From Neoalteromonas facilis (GTDB lineage Bacteria; Pseudomonadota; Gammaproteobacteria; Enterobacterales; Alteromonadaceae), in NCBI RefSeq assembly GCF_002807665.1, contig NZ_PEAY01000004.1, positions 410,604 through 474,603 on the forward strand: 64,000 nucleotides of DNA, in the 5' to 3' direction. The notes under the pieces are model-generated. The model ran no database searches and was not told the DNA's origin. It saw only the letters and a list, made by a program, of their open reading frames with translations. The translations under genes were made by a program, and so were the position numbers. Positions 21,024 to 29,739 of the stretch are shown here, in pieces. Positions within the stretch are counted from its first letter, which is position 1. Each line of letters begins with the position of its first letter.

Positions 21024-22405
21024 GGTTGATACCAGTTCAGTTGCCCCTGCAACTTAACAACACCTCCTACAATAATCAGCGTTGGTGGCTTAATGTCAAC
21101 CTGTTCTGCACATTTTTCAATCGATGATAATGTACCAGTCACAACTTTTTGCTGTGGTAGCGTAGCAGATTCAACCAATGCGATCGGTGTATCTTCGCCA
21201 AGCCCATTGGCGATCAGCTCTCGAACAATGATGGGTAATCCAGTCAAACCCATATAAAATACAATGGTTTGATTTTTATGCGCTAGCGCCGCCCAATTCA
21301 GATCGATACTGTCATCCTTTAGGTGCCCGGTAGCAAACACCACGGATTGTGCATAGTCACGATGCGTCAACGGAATGCCAGCATAACTCGCAGCACCTGT
21401 CGCAGCGGTTATACCCGGTACAACTTCAAAGCTAATATCATGTGCTAAGAGCGATTCAATTTCCTCGCCACCACGACCAAATATAAAGGGGTCCCCACCT
21501 TTGAGACGCACGACTCTGTTACCTTTGAGTGCCTCGTCGATCAATAATGAGTTGATATCCTGTTGCGGCAATGTATGGCGACTTTTTTCTTTACCGACGT
21601 AAATTTTTTCGGCGTCGCGGCGAACCAGTTCGAGAATTTGAGGTGACACTAACCGGTCGTATACAACAACATCAGCCTTTTGCATCAAGCGTAGCGCTCT
21701 AAAAGTCAAAAGGTCCGGGTCTCCGGGGCCTGCACCCACCAGATACACCTGCCCTTTGCCGGTTGATTGTTGTTGGTAATGCCGTAACAAGTCTTCTAAT
21801 TTTTGTTCAGCGCTTTGCAGACGTCCTTGATTAACATCTTCTGCGATATCACCGTCTAACACATCTTCCCAAAAATATCGGCGTTGTGTCACTGAACCCA
21901 GAGCCTGTTTTACTTTGTCTCTAAATCGTTCAGAGAAATCCCCTAAAGCAGCAATACTGTGCGGGATAACACTCTCTAGCTTTTGACGTAAGTAGCGTAA
22001 TAAGACTGGCGCGACACCACCAGAGCTCATCGCAATGATAATCGGCGAGCGATCGACAATAGAGGGTGTAATAAACTTGCACAGTGGCGTGTTGTCGACA
22101 ACATTCACCAGAATGTCTTGAGCGCTAGCTAAATCATGCACATGCTGGTTTACCGCAGGGTTATCGGTCGCAACAAAGATCAGATTTTTATGCTGAATAT
22201 CTGCATCCACAAATTCTCGTTCTATAAGCTCTACCTCGTGCTTTTGACACAGTTCTAAAACCGTTTTACAGCACCAAGGTGAGACCAGCGTGATGCTGGC
22301 CTCAGTCTTCAAGATTAGTTCGAGTTTGCGGGCGGCCACTTCGCCACCACCGACGATGAGTACTCGGCTGTGTTGGCTATCAACAAAAACAGGGAAATAA
22401 CGCAT
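20996..22405 (-). CDS. cysG: Siroheme synthase (trifunctional)
   Basis: CysG makes siroheme from uroporphyrinogen III. The N-terminal half (about 1-210; MRYFPVFVDSQHSRVLIVGGGEVAARK) is the NAD-dependent precorrin-2 dehydrogenase/ferrochelatase. The C-terminal half is the SAM-dependent uroporphyrinogen methyltransferase (GAGPGDPDLLTFRALRLMQ, VVRLKGGDPFIFGRGGEE, GITAATGAASYAGIPLTHRD). The 469-residue length is typical. The ATG shares one base with the deaD stop (TAATG). Pairing with an RNA helicase is unusual and probably only positional. No sulfite reductase genes lie nearby. Confidence 0.95.
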   Translation of the reverse strand: MRYFPVFVDSQHSRVLIVGGGEVAARKLELILKTEASITLVSPWCCKTVLELCQKHEVELIEREFVDADIQHKNLIFVATDNPAVNQHVHDLASAQDILVNVVDNTPLCKFITPSIVDRSPIIIAMSSGGVAPVLLRYLRQKLESVIPHSIAALGDFSERFRDKVKQALGSVTQRRYFWEDVLDGDIAEDVNQGRLQSAEQKLEDLLRHYQQQSTGKGQVYLVGAGPGDPDLLTFRALRLMQKADVVVYDRLVSPQILELVRRDAEKIYVGKEKSRHTLPQQDINSLLIDEALKGNRVVRLKGGDPFIFGRGGEEIESLLAHDISFEVVPGITAATGAASYAGIPLTHRDYAQSVVFATGHLKDDSIDLNWAALAHKNQTIVFYMGLTGLPIIVRELIANGLGEDTPIALVESATLPQQKVVTGTLSSIEKCAEQVDIKPPTLIIVGGVVKLQGQLNWYQPCAESRTES

Positions 22406-24174
22406 TACTTGTCTATTTTGGGTTTACGCCTTTTGTCTTGACCGCCTCTATCGGATTTACCTTTCCCACCTTTACGCGGAGGTTGATCCGACCACTCTCG
22501 GATATTCAGTCGTTGTCCAGCAACGCGCGTATTTTTCAGTACTTCGCGGGTTTCTGCTGGCATACCTTTGGGTAAATCAACAGTGCTGTAGGTGTCGTAT
22601 ATATCGATAGCACCAATATGCTTACTGCTAATATTCGCTTCATTGGCGATGGCACCAACGATATTACCGGGCTTGGCTCCATGAGCATGACCACAGTCGA
22701 TCCGATAACGTTGCTTATCGGCATCGGGTTGGCTATTGCGTTGAGGTTTACGACGTTCTGAGCGATCGTTGCGATCACCACGCTCTCCTCTTTCAGAGCG
22801 AGCACCGCGTTTATCATCTCGTGCGGGTTTGCTATGCAAGTCAGGACGATCAGTCTCATTCAATAGCAACGGCTCATCACCTTGCGCTAACTTCGCCAAA
22901 GCCGCCATTAGACGTTCCGGTGAGGCTTCGGTCTCGGTTTGAATGCTTTCTATGATTGGAATGAACTGCTCAATGGCATCGTCTTGTAAAGCTTCAACAA
23001 CACTTTGTTTGAAACGTGACAAACGCGATTGGTTTAACTCGTTGATCGATGGAATATCCATTCTTTCGATCACTTGCTTTGTTGTTTTCTCAATGGAAGT
23101 AAGCAAACGCTTTTCGCGATAATTGATAAACAAGATCGCATCACCTTGACGGCCTGCTCGACCAGTGCGGCCTATTCGGTGTACATATGATTCCGAATCG
23201 TAAGGTATATCAAAGTTGATAACGTGGCTTACGCGTTCGACATCTAGACCACGCGCAACAACATCGGTAGCTACCAATATGTCGATTTTGCCCTGTTTCA
23301 AACGCTCAACCGTGCGTTCACGGGCATTTTGTGGAATGTCGCCATTCAAAGGCTCTACATCGTAGCCGCGTGCAGACAATTTCTCTGCCAATTCAACCGT
23401 GGCAGTTTTGGTACGTACGAAAATTATCATGGCATCAAAGGTCTCGACCTCCATGATACGTGTCAATGCTTCCAGTTTATGATGACCGGCTACCTGGCAA
23501 TAGCGCTGACGGATGGTACTGGCCGTCGTCACTTTCGAGGCAATTTTGACATGCTTCGGCTGATTCAAATAGCGCTTGGTAATTTTACGGATAGGCTCTG
23601 GCATCGTGGCAGAAAATAGCGCAGTTTGTCGCTCTTCTGGTGCGTGACTGAGAATAAGCTCTACATCGTCGATAAAACCCATGCGTAGCATTTCGTCAGC
23701 TTCATCAAGTACCAAGAAACGTAATTCGTTGAGCTTCAACGTGCCACGATTAATGTGGTCGATGACTCGGCCTGGCGTGCCCACCACGACTTGCACACCA
23801 CGTTTTAGTTGGCGAATTTGATTATCATAAGATTGGCCGCCGTATATAGGTAATACACGGATCTTTTTAGAGAAGCTTGCGTATACCTGGAAGGCTTCGG
23901 CAACCTGAATAGCCAGTTCTCGCGTTGGTGCTAATACCAGTAACTGTGGCAGGGTGGCATCATCGTCAAGCTTTGCCAGCATAGGGAGCGCAAAGGCTGC
24001 TGTTTTACCGGTACCTGTTTGAGCTTGGCCAAGAAGGTCATGCCCTTCGAGTATAAGTGGAATACTTTCAGCTTGGATAGGTGATGGCTTTTCATAGCCC
24101 ACTTTTTCAAGCGCTTGTAAAATTGGTTCGGGGAGGTTGAGGTCGCTAAAATTAATGTCGACAGTCTGAGTCAT
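22405..24174 (-). CDS. deaD: Cold-shock DEAD-box RNA helicase
   Basis: DeaD/CsdA unwinds RNA in ribosome biogenesis and mRNA decay at low temperature. Motifs in order are GQAQTGTGKTAAF, PTRELAIQV, VGTPGRVIDH, LDEADEMLR, SATMPEPI, ARGLDVERVSHVINFD and HRIGRTGRAG. A basic Arg/Asp/Glu-rich linker and a DbpA-like RNA-binding domain (YRIDCGHAHGAKPGNIVGA) follow, with a basic tail. ATG 24174 is chosen because it has AGGA upstream and the family N-terminus MTQTVDINFSDL; the frame is open a further 28 codons upstream. The leader of about 200 nt to prsT may carry cold regulation. Confidence 0.95.
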   Translation of the reverse strand: MTQTVDINFSDLNLPEPILQALEKVGYEKPSPIQAESIPLILEGHDLLGQAQTGTGKTAAFALPMLAKLDDDATLPQLLVLAPTRELAIQVAEAFQVYASFSKKIRVLPIYGGQSYDNQIRQLKRGVQVVVGTPGRVIDHINRGTLKLNELRFLVLDEADEMLRMGFIDDVELILSHAPEERQTALFSATMPEPIRKITKRYLNQPKHVKIASKVTTASTIRQRYCQVAGHHKLEALTRIMEVETFDAMIIFVRTKTATVELAEKLSARGYDVEPLNGDIPQNARERTVERLKQGKIDILVATDVVARGLDVERVSHVINFDIPYDSESYVHRIGRTGRAGRQGDAILFINYREKRLLTSIEKTTKQVIERMDIPSINELNQSRLSRFKQSVVEALQDDAIEQFIPIIESIQTETEASPERLMAALAKLAQGDEPLLLNETDRPDLHSKPARDDKRGARSERGERGDRNDRSERRKPQRNSQPDADKQRYRIDCGHAHGAKPGNIVGAIANEANISSKHIGAIDIYDTYSTVDLPKGMPAETREVLKNTRVAGQRLNIREWSDQPPRKGGKGKSDRGGQDKRRKPKIDK

Positions 24175-24380
24175 TGTGGATCCTGAGTTTGGGCGAGGCC
24201 ATTTCAAGCAGCTATGTCGCGCCCACCAACCCCATATTATGCTGGTAGATAAAAACAAACACCGCTTGCGTGTTGCAAAGCTAATAGTATATTCGATAAC
24301 CTGTGGCTATACCATGAATACCACGCGTCCTTTTCAAACGAATTCGGCGAGCGCGGACATAAAAGCAACAAGGATTTTGT

Positions 24381-27164
24381 ATGATTCAACGTAAACACGG
24401 CGTTACCCATGCGCTAAAAGGCGTAGCAATGGCTGTTTGTATCGGCCTAATGGGCTGTTCACAAAAGACCAGTGAGGAGCACATCGCTGCGGCGCAAGCC
24501 TTTGTGCAGCAAGATAACCCCCAAGCCGCGATTGTTGAGTTAAAGAATGCGATTCAACTCGAACCCCAGTCAGCGAAGGCACGTTTCGAGTTGGGCAAGG
24601 TTTACATGGCCCAAGATGATTTCGCCAGTGCTGAAAAAGAATTGACCAGAGCAATGGACCTAGGACATCCGGCATCAGAAATTGTGCCGATGCTATCAAG
24701 GGCATACCGTCGCACTGGGGCGGTTAACGCATTGTCAGAAGTTGACCATAAGATGGCTAATTTGACCTCGGCAGAACGAGTAGAAGTCGGCTTCTTCAAA
24801 CTGCAGTCATTGGTTGAGCTTGATCAAATGGAACAAGCTCGTTTATTGATTGAAGAATTAACCCAACTGGACACGAGCTCTACCTACTTAGGCTTGGTCA
24901 AGGTGGTTGAAGCGGTGTTAAATGAGGACACTGAACTTGCACTGCAATTAGCCCAAGAAACCCGTGACAAGGCGCCCCTTAACCGTGATGCGCTATTATT
25001 TCTTGCCCGTTTGCACTTAGAGCAGCAGCAGGTCGATTTGGCCATTGAGGCATTTGCTGATTATGTCAGCAAATACCCTCGTGACACGGATACAAAGTTC
25101 TTACTTGCAACGATGCTGGTTGAGATGGGTAAGACCGACGAAGCCGCTAAGTACGTTGATGACTTACTCGCGATAGCGAATAAAAACCCGATGCTGAATC
25201 AACTAAAAGGCATTATTCTGAGTGAGCAAGGCGAATATGCGAAAGCGTATGAGCACCTTAAGGTCGCATTGGAAACCGGTCGAAATGACCCTGTCTTACG
25301 TTTGGTGTCAGGGTTTACAGCATTTCAGTTGGGCGATTACGAAGCCGCGCACAATCACCTATCGATGATTGCCTCTCAGTTACCCAATGATCATGCCGGG
25401 TTAAAGTTATTGGCTGCCAGTCAATTGCAGTTAGGCCTTTCTGACGACGCAACTGCTTCATTGCAACGTTTGCAAACAGACAGCAGTGATGATGCAACGC
25501 TATTCTCTCGAGCTGGCTATGAGTTAGTCAAAGCCGGTAACGTAGAAGACGCTAAAGAAATGCTTAAACGCACACAAGAACTCGGTACTGGCGCGGATGA
25601 TTTGTTGCGCTTAGGGGTGTTGCAGCTGTCATTGAATCAAGTTGAAGGCATTATCAATCTTGAACAAGCCGTTGAGCAGGCCCCTGAGTCAAGCACTGCA
25701 CAATCAACTTTGGCGACAGCCTACTTGGCCACGAGTCAACTGGATAAGGCAGCAAAGTTAGCTTCAGATTGGAAAAACATCGCGCCCAATGAACCTCAAG
25801 CCTATTTGCTTGCTGCAGAAGTGGCAAAACGCAACGATGATATGGCGACAGCCTTGAGTGAATACGAACAAGCCCTGGCAATAGCGCCTAATGACCCTGT
25901 AGTCGTGCTTTCTCATGCCCGTTTTGTTGGGCAACAAGGCGATCTTGACGCCGGTATCGCGGGTGCTAAACAGGTACTCGAGCAAGATCCCAAAAACCTC
26001 AATGCCTTGGCGTTGATGTACCTATTGCAACGTGAGCAAGGTGATGCTTCAGAGGCGATGTCATTAGCACAGCAGCAATTGCAGCAAGCGCCTAATGAAG
26101 AGAGTGTGCGTATTTTGGTGGCTCGTATGCAGGCAACCGAGGGCAGTGTTGAAGAAGCATTGCAGACGCTATCGCGTATAACACCTTCCGCCTCAACGCA
26201 GCGTGATTTCTGGCAGCTAAAAGGGCAAGCCCTTATCCAGCAAAGAAACATCAATGATGCTCAACAGCATTTCAATCAGTGGATTTCGTTGTATCCATAT
26301 GACAAGAATGCTGCGTTGGGTAATTTGTTGCTATTGGATATGGCAGGCAAAGTGGATGAAGGCATTTTAATCGTTGATAACTTCTTGGAAAAGCGCTCAG
26401 ATCCGCATATTCGTTTGTTACAAGCTCACTTTTATAGCTTAAAGCCGGATGTACAGAAAAGCCGAGAGGCGTTGTCCAAATTGCAGGGTGATTTAGATGA
26501 GAACCCGTTTTATCAAAGCGTTGTAGCGCGCAATTACCTGTTTGAGAAAGAGTTTGCTAAAGCAATAGCGCCAGCCGAGGTTGCGTATAACGCTGATCCT
26601 AATTTTAGAAATTTGTTGAGCCTACTGAGTGCATATGAAGGCAATGACCAGCTCGATAGAAGTAATGAAGTACTGGCTGCTCACACAGAAGAACACCCAA
26701 GAGATTTGCGCGCTAGAATGATTTTGGCTGAGCGTCACTTGCGGAGTGACAGTGATACGGCAATCCAACAATATTTAGCGTTAGTTGAAGCGGACGGCAA
26801 AAATTTCATTGCTCTGAATAACCTAGCGTATTTACTGATGGAGAAAAATGATCTCGACTCTGCGATCACGTACGCGGAGCGTGCAGTTGAATTGCAACCC
26901 GATAATGCGGCGACTGCTGACACGTTAGCGCAAATTCACGTTGCGGGCGGAGATTTAGATAAAGCATTGGCACTGTATGATCGTACGGTGAATGCACGTA
27001 TGGGCAATGAGGAAATTTTCCTCAATTATATTGAGACATTGCTTAAAGCTGATAAGAAGGTGATTGCGGAGCGTCGCCTTCAAGAGCGTAAGTTTGAGCA
27101 ACCTGAATCACAGCAAACGATTGCGCGTTTGGTTGAAACATACGGTATTAAAGTTGCCGATTGA
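24381..27164 (+). CDS. TPR-repeat lipoprotein resembling PrsT
   Basis: This 927-residue protein begins with a lipoprotein signal; the lipobox LMGC places the lipidated cysteine at C26, and Ser at +2 predicts outer-membrane sorting. The rest is tandem tetratricopeptide repeats, roughly twenty or more (for example AKARFELGKVYMAQDDFASAEK and AATADTLAQIHVAGGDLDKAL). The architecture and repeat pattern resemble PrsT of PEP-CTERM/XrtA exopolysaccharide systems. No exosortase, glycosyltransferase or PEP-CTERM protein is visible here, so it is an orphan relative or has another scaffold role. AGGA precedes the ATG. Confidence 0.75.
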   Translation: MIQRKHGVTHALKGVAMAVCIGLMGCSQKTSEEHIAAAQAFVQQDNPQAAIVELKNAIQLEPQSAKARFELGKVYMAQDDFASAEKELTRAMDLGHPASEIVPMLSRAYRRTGAVNALSEVDHKMANLTSAERVEVGFFKLQSLVELDQMEQARLLIEELTQLDTSSTYLGLVKVVEAVLNEDTELALQLAQETRDKAPLNRDALLFLARLHLEQQQVDLAIEAFADYVSKYPRDTDTKFLLATMLVEMGKTDEAAKYVDDLLAIANKNPMLNQLKGIILSEQGEYAKAYEHLKVALETGRNDPVLRLVSGFTAFQLGDYEAAHNHLSMIASQLPNDHAGLKLLAASQLQLGLSDDATASLQRLQTDSSDDATLFSRAGYELVKAGNVEDAKEMLKRTQELGTGADDLLRLGVLQLSLNQVEGIINLEQAVEQAPESSTAQSTLATAYLATSQLDKAAKLASDWKNIAPNEPQAYLLAAEVAKRNDDMATALSEYEQALAIAPNDPVVVLSHARFVGQQGDLDAGIAGAKQVLEQDPKNLNALALMYLLQREQGDASEAMSLAQQQLQQAPNEESVRILVARMQATEGSVEEALQTLSRITPSASTQRDFWQLKGQALIQQRNINDAQQHFNQWISLYPYDKNAALGNLLLLDMAGKVDEGILIVDNFLEKRSDPHIRLLQAHFYSLKPDVQKSREALSKLQGDLDENPFYQSVVARNYLFEKEFAKAIAPAEVAYNADPNFRNLLSLLSAYEGNDQLDRSNEVLAAHTEEHPRDLRARMILAERHLRSDSDTAIQQYLALVEADGKNFIALNNLAYLLMEKNDLDSAITYAERAVELQPDNAATADTLAQIHVAGGDLDKALALYDRTVNARMGNEEIFLNYIETLLKADKKVIAERRLQERKFEQPESQQTIARLVETYGIKVAD

Positions 27165-27229
27165 TGCTTGAAATAGTTGTGGTTGGCACCACTTTAACGC
27201 GGAGCCAACCATGACTGTAGATGCATCAA
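27161..27229. promoter_or_regulatory. Nested inverted repeats before the channel gene
   Basis: An outer 7-bp repeat, TTGATGC (27161-27167) and GCATCAA (27223-27229), encloses an inner one, GGTTGGC (27181-27187) and GCCAACC (27204-27210). The structure spans the prsT-like stop codon and ends one base before the channel ATG. No Shine-Dalgarno precedes that ATG. It has no T-run, so it is not a standard terminator; an RNA fold controlling channel translation is possible. Confidence 0.35.
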
Positions 27230-27230
27230 C

Positions 27231-28058
27231 ATGTACCAACAATTACAAGAACGCTTATTCCACCTAAAAAGCAATCGAGCCTTTGAGCTCTTTGTCGTTG
27301 CCGTCATTATTATTTCTGCGTTAGAAATAGGCGCAAAAACCTACGATCTTCCCGCGTTTGCGTATACGCTTTTAAGCGGTCTAGATATTTTCATTACTCT
27401 CTTTTTCCTGTTTGAAATTATTGTTCGCTTTATCGCAGAACCGAATAAAAAGGACTTTTTCAAATCGGGGTGGAATATATTTGACACCCTCGTGGTCGTT
27501 ATCAGCCTAATACCGGTGCAAGACAGTGAGATGGCACTACTGGCCCGTCTTGTTCGTGTGTTCAGGGTATTGCGGATGGTATCCATTATTCCGGAATTAC
27601 GACTGCTCATTAACTCATTGCTTAAAGCCTTGCCTCAATTAGGCTACGTAGTGTTGTTGCTGTTTATTATTTTTTATATTTACGCCGCCATCGGCAGTTT
27701 CTTATTCAAAGATATTAACCCATTCTTATGGGGCAATATTGCGATATCGATGCTGACTCTGTTCAGGGTTATGACGTTTGAAGATTGGACTGACGTGCAA
27801 TATGAGACCATGGAAGTCTATCCACTTAGCTGGATGTTCTACATGAGTTTTATCTTTTTCACGACATTTGCTTTCCTCAATATGGTCATTGGTATTGTGG
27901 TGAACGTGATGGAAGAGGAACACAAAGCAGAGGCAAAGAAGAACAATCCTGAGCCCAGCATGAGTGAACTACACCAAGAGATCAAAGCGTTAAAATCGTT
28001 GGTTAAACAATTAGCTGAGACAAAAAGCTCACAGCAACTGGAAGGTGATAAAAATTGA
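27231..28058 (+). CDS. Voltage-gated cation channel, BacNav-like, acidic filter
   Basis: This 275-residue protein has the six-segment layout of single-domain voltage-gated channels. S4 carries R106, R109, R112 and R115 at every third position (RLVRVFRVLRM). The pore loop holds the filter TFEDWTD at residues 182-188, followed by S6 (FLNMVIGIVVNVMEEEH) and a C-terminal helix likely to form a tetrameric coiled coil (about 243-268). NaChBac-type sodium channels have TLESWSM; the acidic 185 and 188 positions resemble those engineered into calcium-selective variants, so calcium permeation or block is plausible. A small ORF follows 32 nt downstream. Confidence 0.88.
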   Translation: MYQQLQERLFHLKSNRAFELFVVAVIIISALEIGAKTYDLPAFAYTLLSGLDIFITLFFLFEIIVRFIAEPNKKDFFKSGWNIFDTLVVVISLIPVQDSEMALLARLVRVFRVLRMVSIIPELRLLINSLLKALPQLGYVVLLLFIIFYIYAAIGSFLFKDINPFLWGNIAISMLTLFRVMTFEDWTDVQYETMEVYPLSWMFYMSFIFFTTFAFLNMVIGIVVNVMEEEHKAEAKKNNPEPSMSELHQEIKALKSLVKQLAETKSSQQLEGDKN

Positions 28059-28090
28059 CGTATACTAAAAACTATCAATCAAGGAGTTAA

Positions 28091-28261
28091 ATGCGCATGG
28101 ATAAGCCGGTATCGTCAGTTAAACCTATCTCGGATTCGTTGCAACGTCAGTTGAAAGAAGTATCCGATTCACTCTTAAGTTTTTCTGCCTCTCGCACCGA
28201 AGCGGAGAATTTGCGTGTTCAATTAAAAGATTTATTACAGCGCCTTGAAGAAAATCAGTAA
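28091..28261 (+). CDS. Small coiled-coil protein, 56 residues
   Basis: A perfect AAGGAG (28081-28086) lies 4 nt before ATG 28091; a second in-frame ATG at 28097 would also fit. The product begins MRMDKPVSSVKPISDS and is largely a charged amphipathic helix with regular leucines (SLQRQLKEVSDSLLSF, NLRVQLKDLLQRLEENQ), suggesting a coiled coil. No signal or TM segment is seen. It starts 32 nt after the channel stop and is closed by a strong terminator, so it most likely belongs to the channel transcript. I do not recognise the family. Confidence 0.65.
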   Translation: MRMDKPVSSVKPISDSLQRQLKEVSDSLLSFSASRTEAENLRVQLKDLLQRLEENQ

Positions 28262-28285
28262 TACGTAACAACAGATTTTAGATAT

Positions 28286-28316
28286 AAAAAAACCTCGACA
28301 TCTTCGAGGTTTTTTT
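28286..28316. terminator. Bidirectional rho-independent terminator
   Basis: The GC stem CCTCGA/TCGAGG with a 5-nt loop is flanked by seven As on the left and seven Ts on the right. It can end the small-protein transcript on the plus strand and tolC on the minus strand. Confidence 0.9.
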
Positions 28317-28356
28317 GTGGAAGCTAAACCACCAATACTGGGTGGTTCTTGCTGTG

Positions 28357-29739
28357 TTATCCAGCAGGCATCAGAGCCGCGTTAATCTGCTCTACGTCTT
28401 CTCGTGTCAAATTACCCGCCGCTTGCTTAAGACTGACAATTGACTGGATAAAGTCATAACGTGCACCGGCTAAATTACGACGTGCGTCGAACAAATTACG
28501 TGTGCTGTTCAGTACGTCGACAATTGTACGTGTACCAACGTCGAAACCTGCTTCAGTGGCTTCTAGCGCGCTTTGCGCAGATACAACGGCTTGTTGTAAT
28601 GCATTGATGGTTGAAATAGACGCGATGACGTCGTTGTACGAGCTACGGATAGAACGTACAGTTTGGCGATAGGTCAATTCAAGGTTCTCTGAAGCCGCAA
28701 CATAGCGGAAGCGAGCTTGATCGGTACGAGAAGATACCGCACCACCTTGATAAATTGGCACATTCAAGCGAACACCGATAGATTGGTTATTCAAAGCCGG
28801 TACATCAATATCGCCACCTGTCGCGACGACCGTAGTATCAGTACGGCCATATTCGGCGTTAAGTGACAATGTTGGATAGTGACCCGCGTTTGCGATATCA
28901 ATATCTTCTTTGGCAATGTCTTTTGCGAAACGCTGAACCAATAGATCCAAATTACTTTCTTCAGCAATACCCACCCACTCGCTGGCTGATTCTGGCGCTG
29001 GACGTGGTGCGCTGAATTTTTCAGTGTCTAACACGTATAGCTTATCGTGGTATTTACCGGTGATTTCACGCAGTTCCTCTAGGCGAAGCTCTAACTGATT
29101 TTCAGCACGGATCTGCTGAGCAATGGTGTTATCGAAGTTGGCCTGCGCTTCATGCACATCTGTGATTGCGGTTAATCCCACTTCAAAACGTTGGCGCGTT
29201 TGTTCAAGCTGGCGTTCAATGGCGCGTTTTTCCGCTTTTACAAACTCAACGTTATCTTTAGCGCGCAATACAGCCAAGTAAGCAGATACAGTGCGCGTAA
29301 TCAAACGCTGAAGTTCAGCTGAGTAACTGGCTTCACTTTGCTGTGCAACTAATTCAGCACGGTCTAGACCCAACCAGCGCGCGTGGTCATACAATGACAT
29401 CGTGAAGTTAGCACCCATGCTAAGGGTTTCGGTTTCGTTTTCAAAAACGGCAAAACCGGCAAATACTTCATCTGTATTCGGGTCGCCATCGTCATCGATA
29501 GTTACTGGGTCAGTGTTATCTCGCGTACTCATGGTATAACCGATGTTGGCCGAAATCTCAGGCAACAAACTTGCGCGGCTAATGCTAATGCCTTCAAATG
29601 CAGCGTCGCGGTCAGCTTTGGCTCGATTAACTACAGGGTCGTTGGCAATAGCTTGCTGATAGACCTGCAGCAAGTCGTCTGCAACTGCTCCGGTCGTCAC
29701 GCTCATTCCAATTAATAAGGAAAGTAAGGTTTTTTTCAT
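28357..29739 (-). CDS. tolC: Outer-membrane efflux channel TolC
   Basis: TolC forms the trimeric outer-membrane and periplasmic tunnel used by tripartite efflux and type I secretion. The 460-residue protein has a signal peptide (MKKTLLSLLIGMSVTTGAVA), then two OEP repeats. Characteristic stretches include DLLQVYQQAIANDPVVNRAKADRDAA and the second-repeat GFDVGTRTIVDVLNSTRNLFDARRNL. It is divergent from nudF, the usual arrangement with the nudF-yqiB-cpdA-yqiA-parE group. It could pair with the RND pump at the right edge of the window, though that pump may instead have its own partner. Confidence 0.95.
   Translation of the reverse strand: MKKTLLSLLIGMSVTTGAVADDLLQVYQQAIANDPVVNRAKADRDAAFEGISISRASLLPEISANIGYTMSTRDNTDPVTIDDDGDPNTDEVFAGFAVFENETETLSMGANFTMSLYDHARWLGLDRAELVAQQSEASYSAELQRLITRTVSAYLAVLRAKDNVEFVKAEKRAIERQLEQTRQRFEVGLTAITDVHEAQANFDNTIAQQIRAENQLELRLEELREITGKYHDKLYVLDTEKFSAPRPAPESASEWVGIAEESNLDLLVQRFAKDIAKEDIDIANAGHYPTLSLNAEYGRTDTTVVATGGDIDVPALNNQSIGVRLNVPIYQGGAVSSRTDQARFRYVAASENLELTYRQTVRSIRSSYNDVIASISTINALQQAVVSAQSALEATEAGFDVGTRTIVDVLNSTRNLFDARRNLAGARYDFIQSIVSLKQAAGNLTREDVEQINAALMPAG

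Follow-up and report, generated by a model that had tools for sequence, protein, structure and literature searches.

The open reading frame at 27231-28058 of the window (the whole 64,000-nucleotide stretch of Neoalteromonas facilis DNA analysed here) encodes a voltage-gated channel with the acidic pore filter TFEDWTD, which, by analogy with the measured channel NavPp, is probably sodium-preferring and blocked by calcium. What is new here is a link, read from aligned sequences, between the Asp at the fourth filter position (Asp185, the beacon) and an arginine of the preceding pore helix (Arg179). The gene and its parts are as follows.

27231..28058, + strand: channel coding sequence, 275 aa plus stop, under purifying selection
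27276..27587, + strand: voltage-sensor region, residues 16-119 (Pfam Ion_trans), with AlphaFold2 helices at residues 16-35, 42-69, 80-93, 102-113 and 115-119
27546..27575, + strand: S4 gating arginines R106, R109, R112 and R115, at every third residue, invariant in 134/134 clade rows
27591..27707, + strand: S4-S5 linker and S5 helix, residues 121-159 (AlphaFold2)
27738..27773, + strand: P1 pore helix, residues 170-181 (AlphaFold2)
27765..27767, + strand: Arg179 in P1, at the place of NavAb Gln172 (alignment, tree and column scan)
27774..27794, + strand: selectivity filter TFEDWTD, residues 182-188 (phmmer, AlphaFold2), with E184 as high-field site, D185 as beacon and D188 as outer ring
27786..27818, + strand: P2 helix, residues 186-196 (AlphaFold2, alignment)
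27828..27944, + strand: S6 helix and extension, residues 200-238 (AlphaFold2)
27960..28052, + strand: C-terminal helix, residues 244-274 (AlphaFold2), probably a tetramer coiled coil

The reading frame is intact and contains a single Pfam Ion_trans domain (3.9e-46, channel residues 16-233). The features of the BacNav superfamily are all present, namely a voltage sensor with S4 arginines at every third position, a pore loop with two pore helices, and S6. An AlphaFold2 model of the monomer was obtained from an alignment of 42 sequences (the window protein and 41 translations drawn from the best 80 matches of one search) with a mean pLDDT of 89.4 and a pTM of 0.68. The model shows a helix at residues 170-181, a break at 182-185 and a second helix at 186-196, which correspond to the P1 helix, the filter and the P2 helix. 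The best solved matches to the model in Foldseek were NavMs (3.6e-13), NaChBac, NavRh (4dxw_B, 5.4e-12, 45% identity), NavAb and CavAb (5klb, 1.2e-11). In phmmer, channel residues 11-229 aligned without gaps to NavRh (4DXW, 208 bits), with TFEDWTD on NavRh TLSSWET; the top totals belonged to four-repeat T-type calcium channels, for which several stretches are summed, and NavRh was the best-scoring bacterial channel. Membership of the BacNav superfamily is thus borne out by the Pfam domain, the AlphaFold2 layout and the Foldseek matches. The earlier note had placed TFEDWTD at residues 182-188 and its acidic residues in the pore filter; the reading frame confirms the former, and the NavRh alignment and the P1/filter/P2 layout agree on the latter. 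Its description of the filter as TLESWSM with Asp at 185 and 188 holds for those two residues but is incomplete, as residues 183 (Phe for Leu) and 187 (Thr for Ser) differ too. Canonical channels carry one extra residue after the filter Trp, and the MAFFT gap falls at their Met, leaving D188 of the window channel opposite the Gly that follows it; the equivalence of D188 with NavAb M181 is not settled by the alignment.

The channel gene is ordinary for its lineage, and its filter is nearly invariant. Matches were found in 48 of 59 searched genomes, and within the same family in 34 of 35, with 31 of the 35 at E 1.9e-58 or better (own genome included in each count). At E up to 0.001 there were also matches in 120 of 369 genomes of a class sample and in 173 of 398 of a phylum sample, many of them distant. 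Among 30 loci read from the 59-genome search, own included, the filter is TFEDWTD in 29 and TFEGWTD in one (L021). Across 134 clade rows (sequences at least 48% identical to the window protein) it reads TFEDWTD in 117, TFESW(A)TA in 13, TLEDWTD in two, and TFEGWTD and TFESWTS in one each. Thr-182, Glu-184, Trp-186, Thr-187, the four S4 arginines and Asn217 of S6 do not vary over these rows, and mean entropy is 0.17 bit in the filter compared with 1.08 over residues 10-234. Comparison with seven near relatives gave saturation at synonymous sites (pS 0.77-0.87) and 0.10-0.19 non-synonymous differences per site, with all codon differences within the filter being synonymous; purifying selection on the gene is strong. 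This pattern, together with the matches in 48 of the 59 genomes, indicates that the channel is not a chance reading frame. Identity to it is 65-66% for the channels of Alteromonas and Aestuariibacter, and the source organism is probably a marine relative of Alteromonas. One genome of the same family (G021) has both an acidic TFEDWTD and a canonical TLESWSM channel (loci L019 and L122, C7 and C1).

For phylogenetic placement, 254 proteins, the best matches of each search with some genes present under two locus identifiers, were aligned with MAFFT. One contributing search kept its best 80 matches and had EDWTD in one of its two patterns, so that rows with the beacon Asp are over-represented; the tree test described below counts independent changes and is therefore less affected. 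The set was thinned to 122 rows, leaving out those shorter than 225 residues, and the unrooted tree was built from 121 rows, excluding L136, with residues 177-190 removed. Supports in the careful tree are given as bootstrap/SH-aLRT, of which the bootstrap is not fully settled. A clade of TFEDWTD-type channels (49 rows) received 99/98, and the group of 51 rows that it forms with NavRh and one relative received 100/99. The canonical clade, mainly TLESWSM (21 rows, 100/99), does not contain the window channel, and a third clade, mainly TLEDWTD (40 rows, 100/100), includes Chloroflexota, Acidobacteriota, Nitrospirota, Pseudomonadota and Omnitrophota among the rows listed. The window channel hence lies with NavRh and outside the canonical NavAb-like clade (100/99 each) in a tree that contains no Bacillus group. 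L103 is NavRh, differing by one residue from the crystallized form, and with L092 it is sister to the TFEDWTD-type clade rather than to the canonical BacNavs (100/99), so that its odd SSW filter belongs near the acidic lineage.

These results point to an acidic-filter, AnclNav-type relative of the bacterial sodium channels, an assignment inferred through filter, distribution and membership of Halomonadaceae channels in the clade. AnclNavs are spread over multiple phyla and have TLESW-like filters with more acids (PMC7041947), and TFEDWTD is a filter of this kind. At position 4 the window channel has Asp185, neither the Ser of canonical BacNavs nor the Gly of the CavMr type, and it departs from the CavAb-type TLDDWSD by Glu184 at position 3 while having Asp at 4 and 7. 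In Halomonadaceae, the family of Onishia taeanensis, 43 of 101 genomes match at 2.8e-80 or better, further matches being no better than 1.2e-12, and the 30 of these 43 loci that were read all fit the TFEDWTD-type clade. The published AnclNav of H. elongata, silent when tested, comes from this family (PMC7041947).

Arg179 lies three residues before the filter Thr. Its counterpart in NavAb, Gln172, bonds the main chain of Glu177 and is steadied by Arg185 of P2; NavAb Q172N gave no current in five cells per mutant, and the specific role of Gln172 is called unclear (PMC12919392). In the 254 proteins, some of them repeated and with Asp rows over-represented, a beacon Asp is accompanied by Arg at this place in 190 of 191 cases and a beacon Ser by Gln in 36 of 37, and the 23 beacon Gly rows have Asn (12), Arg (6), Gln (4) or Glu (1). 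The P2 helix differs as well: Tyr191 stands where canonical channels have Arg, and within the 20 commonest combinations all 195 Arg179 rows have this Tyr, while the Gln rows show Arg-Pro (24) or Tyr-Pro (13) there. The careful tree yielded 11 independent pairs that differ in the beacon Asp on well-supported branches; on average, Arg changes in step with the Asp in 6.7 of them, in the opposite direction in 0 and not at all in 4.3, with a median sign-test p of 0.0156 (range 0.0156-0.0312). The quick tree gave nine pairs (6.2 the same way, 0 opposite, 2.8 without difference; median p 0.031), and on it the narrower association between Ser and Gln fell short of significance (median p 0.25). In column scans, which passed over near-invariant or gappy columns (41 of 275 in the 234-column scan), residue 179 ranked third of 234 on the careful tree, after the beacon and D188 and first outside the filter, and third of 207 on the quick tree. 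Tyr191 and further P2 residues rank close behind it, and the link to the beacon Asp may, judging from these columns, extend to the whole pore-helix pair.

The association has exceptions. L136, which has a very long branch and was left out of the quick and the careful tree, combines Gln with a beacon Asp, and Arg is kept in five of 41 rows that have no beacon Asp (four Gly, one Ser). In Cav3.2 (9ayg) the EDW of the second repeat is preceded by Gln (FQILTQEDW), which runs against a strict rule but, as Cav3.2 is a calcium channel, does not contradict the role proposed below for the arginine. The switch occurs inside a single family in Halomonadaceae, where 19 of the 30 loci read have LFR..TFEDWTD and 11 have LFQ..TFESWATA with one added residue. 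The latter sequence, found in L247-L257, L132 and L133 (Halomonadaceae and one other family), resembles a canonical sodium-channel filter in a protein of the acidic clade. Asp and Arg are both absent from the Halomonadaceae TFESWATA branch, from NavRh, from TFDNWAH channels and from Chloroflexota Gly channels; with an unrooted tree, these cases carry no polarity of gain or loss. It is conceivable, though on balance doubtful, that the beacon Asp and the pore-helix Arg act together in prokaryotic channels, the Arg holding either the Asp or the filter backbone such that calcium blocks instead of passing. If so, a second switch would lie behind the filter and would explain why NavAb and NaChBac become calcium-selective and NavPp is calcium-blocked under near-identical acidic filters. 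A simple neutralization of the Asp by the Arg is weakened as an explanation by the five rows with Arg and no beacon Asp and by the calcium-selective NavPp-D4G. A literature search on the pore-helix arginine and filter coevolution of bacterial channels, covering titles and the beginnings of abstracts, did not return the Arg-Asp link; the main text of PMC7041947 contains none of the words "Arginine", "Arg", "glutamine" or "Gln", and the literal string TFEDWTD was not found in the literature search.

Natural variants of the beacon occur in several lineages. L021 (TFEGWTD) and L125 (TLEGWTD) have Gly at the position that decides selectivity in CavMr and NavPp and keep the pore-helix Arg, making them candidate calcium channels by sequence. 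Twelve Chloroflexota channels (L149, L155, L156, L159, L161, L162, L166, L179, L187, L191, L192 and L207) have CavMr-like Gly filters, including TLEGWTE, TLEGWTV and TLDGWTN, and Asn at the pore-helix place; they are candidate native calcium channels. The literature disagrees on the beacon Asp, which in one-domain channels is described as always giving calcium selectivity (PMC10120453), while NavPp, whose filter is almost that of the window channel, is described as a calcium-blocked sodium channel (PMC7041947). Natural Asp, Gly and Ser all occur at this position in the clade, in proteins that have the pore-helix Arg and in others that lack it, and the sister NavRh has a crystal structure, so the question becomes testable with natural genes rather than designed mutants. 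The variant series and the Arg-Asp link should be of use to specialists.

A TPR gene (24381-27164) and a gene for an outer-membrane efflux protein (28357-29739) flank the channel gene; the other neighboring genes are those of a DEAD-box helicase and of a NUDIX protein. Both flanking genes are kept in 10 of 20 relatives' regions, and in these the channel has the orientation seen in the window five times and is reversed relative to both neighbors five times. It thus occupies one intergenic place (within 24381-29739 of the window) in either orientation, as though flipped in place. Because it is reversed in half of the kept regions, it need not be co-transcribed with its neighbors, and it can probably be transcribed alone; 66 nt separate it from the TPR gene, and a scan of 26900-28500 gave nothing above chance. 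The occurrence of either orientation in a kept place favors an independent unit over a functional link with the neighbors, and a functional partner next door is unsupported by the identity of the neighboring genes. The TTG start listed for the DEAD-box helicase (22405-24258) is probably too far upstream, given an internal ATG at residue 29 and a Pfam domain that does not begin until residue 59.

The prediction of a sodium-preferring, calcium-blocked channel follows from the filter being one residue away from that of NavPp (Plesiocystis pacifica), whose natural TLEDWTD gives a PCa/PNa of 0.308. This sodium preference is termed modest and some calcium passes, yet the current falls as calcium rises. 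NavPp carrying the filters of calcium-selective mutants, TLEDWSD or TLEDWAD, did not become a calcium channel; block persisted with the former and was seemingly stronger with the latter (PMC7041947). The Phe at position 2, where NavPp has Leu, is described from some BacNav and AnclNav filters, and in NavAb the L176F exchange did not make calcium reduce the current (PMC10349818). Accepting the analogy, the protein would act as a homotetramer, a voltage-gated cation channel of the ancestor-like sort in which depolarization shifts S4 with its four arginines and opens the gate at S6, as in the family. The pore would conduct chiefly sodium, calcium might pass to some extent, and calcium bound at the rings of E184, D185 and D188 would slow the current as in NavPp. 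Its role may be that of a sodium entry or depolarization path in what is presumably a marine bacterium. The earlier note took the engineered CavAb (TLDDWSD) as its guide, which proves a poor choice and is ruled out as the main one by NavPp, whose acids at positions 4 and 7 are the same; its caution that not every natural acidic filter confers calcium selectivity is upheld by NavPp TLEDWTD, and its expectation of calcium permeation or block named the right options, of which calcium selectivity is now the less favored.

Against this reading count CavMr bearing TLEDWTD, the AnclNavs of H. elongata and T. turnerae, which have NavPp-like filters and gave no current in Sf9 cells (PMC7041947), and the statement in the Spafford review that a beacon Asp in one-domain channels always leads to calcium selectivity (PMC10120453). 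The abstract of that review describes another class that combines the beacon Asp with strong calcium block, and NavPp is nowhere named in its text. A native calcium-selective channel, in which E184, D185 and D188 form a high-affinity path as in the CavAb series and admit calcium on depolarization, is unlikely in our view. The NavAb TLEDWSD and NaChBac TLEDWAD mutants are described as calcium-selective (PMC7041947), and changing TLESWSM to TLEDWSM alone reportedly raises calcium over sodium permeability ~100-fold (PMC10120453). CavMr with the NavPp filter, although its selectivity is called "almost lost", retains a PCa/PNa of 13.8, so that these seven residues can favor sodium in one frame and calcium in another, and residues beyond them must matter. 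NavPp, however, lacks calcium selectivity with its native and with the mutant filters and gains it through D4G, whereas in the natural calcium channel CavMr position 4 is Gly, and G4D takes away much of the selectivity (PMC7041947); in CavAb position 3 is Asp too, where the window channel has Glu. The modest preference of NavPp and the more non-selective behavior of CavMr with the NavPp filter (PMC7041947) would also fit a pathway of weak selectivity among Na+, K+ and Ca2+, with acids that merely raise the local cation concentration, but a filter nearly invariant over 134 clade rows suggests a definite selectivity, and we hold such a pathway to be somewhat less probable again. That the channel conducts little alone and depends on some unknown partner or condition might account for the two silent AnclNavs (PMC7041947); with the adjacent genes having other functions, kept together in only half of the relatives' regions and flanking a reversed channel in five of these, we consider it very improbable. 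The sodium-preferring, calcium-blocked reading is thus the one we retain.

Of the known systems, NavPp is the closest by filter, the only level at which the two were compared: both are single-domain bacterial channels, their three filter acids are identical and identically placed, they differ in Leu (NavPp) or Phe (window channel) at position 2, and P. pacifica is marine. NavRh is the best-scoring solved bacterial channel, but its filter TLSSWET lacks the beacon Asp and it has Gln at the place of Arg179. CavMr from Meiothermus ruber, a natural prokaryotic calcium channel placed in the AnclNav group by its authors, likewise has an acidic filter, TLEGWVD, whose position 7 is Asp, and in this comparison of filters differs at position 4, where it has Gly, the key to its calcium selectivity (PMC7041947), instead of Asp185. 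CavAb and the NavAb TLEDWSD mutants share the fold of the window channel in Foldseek and the acids at positions 4 and 7, but they were engineered in a canonical frame, with Gln172 in P1 and Arg185 in P2 (PMC12919392), and CavAb has a further Asp in place of Glu184. The canonical BacNavs (NavMs and NavAb-like channels with TLESWSM) have the same six-helix voltage-gated fold, whereas Ser at the beacon, Gln in P1, Arg in P2 and one residue more past the filter Trp distinguish them from the window channel, from which they are separated as a clade of their own.
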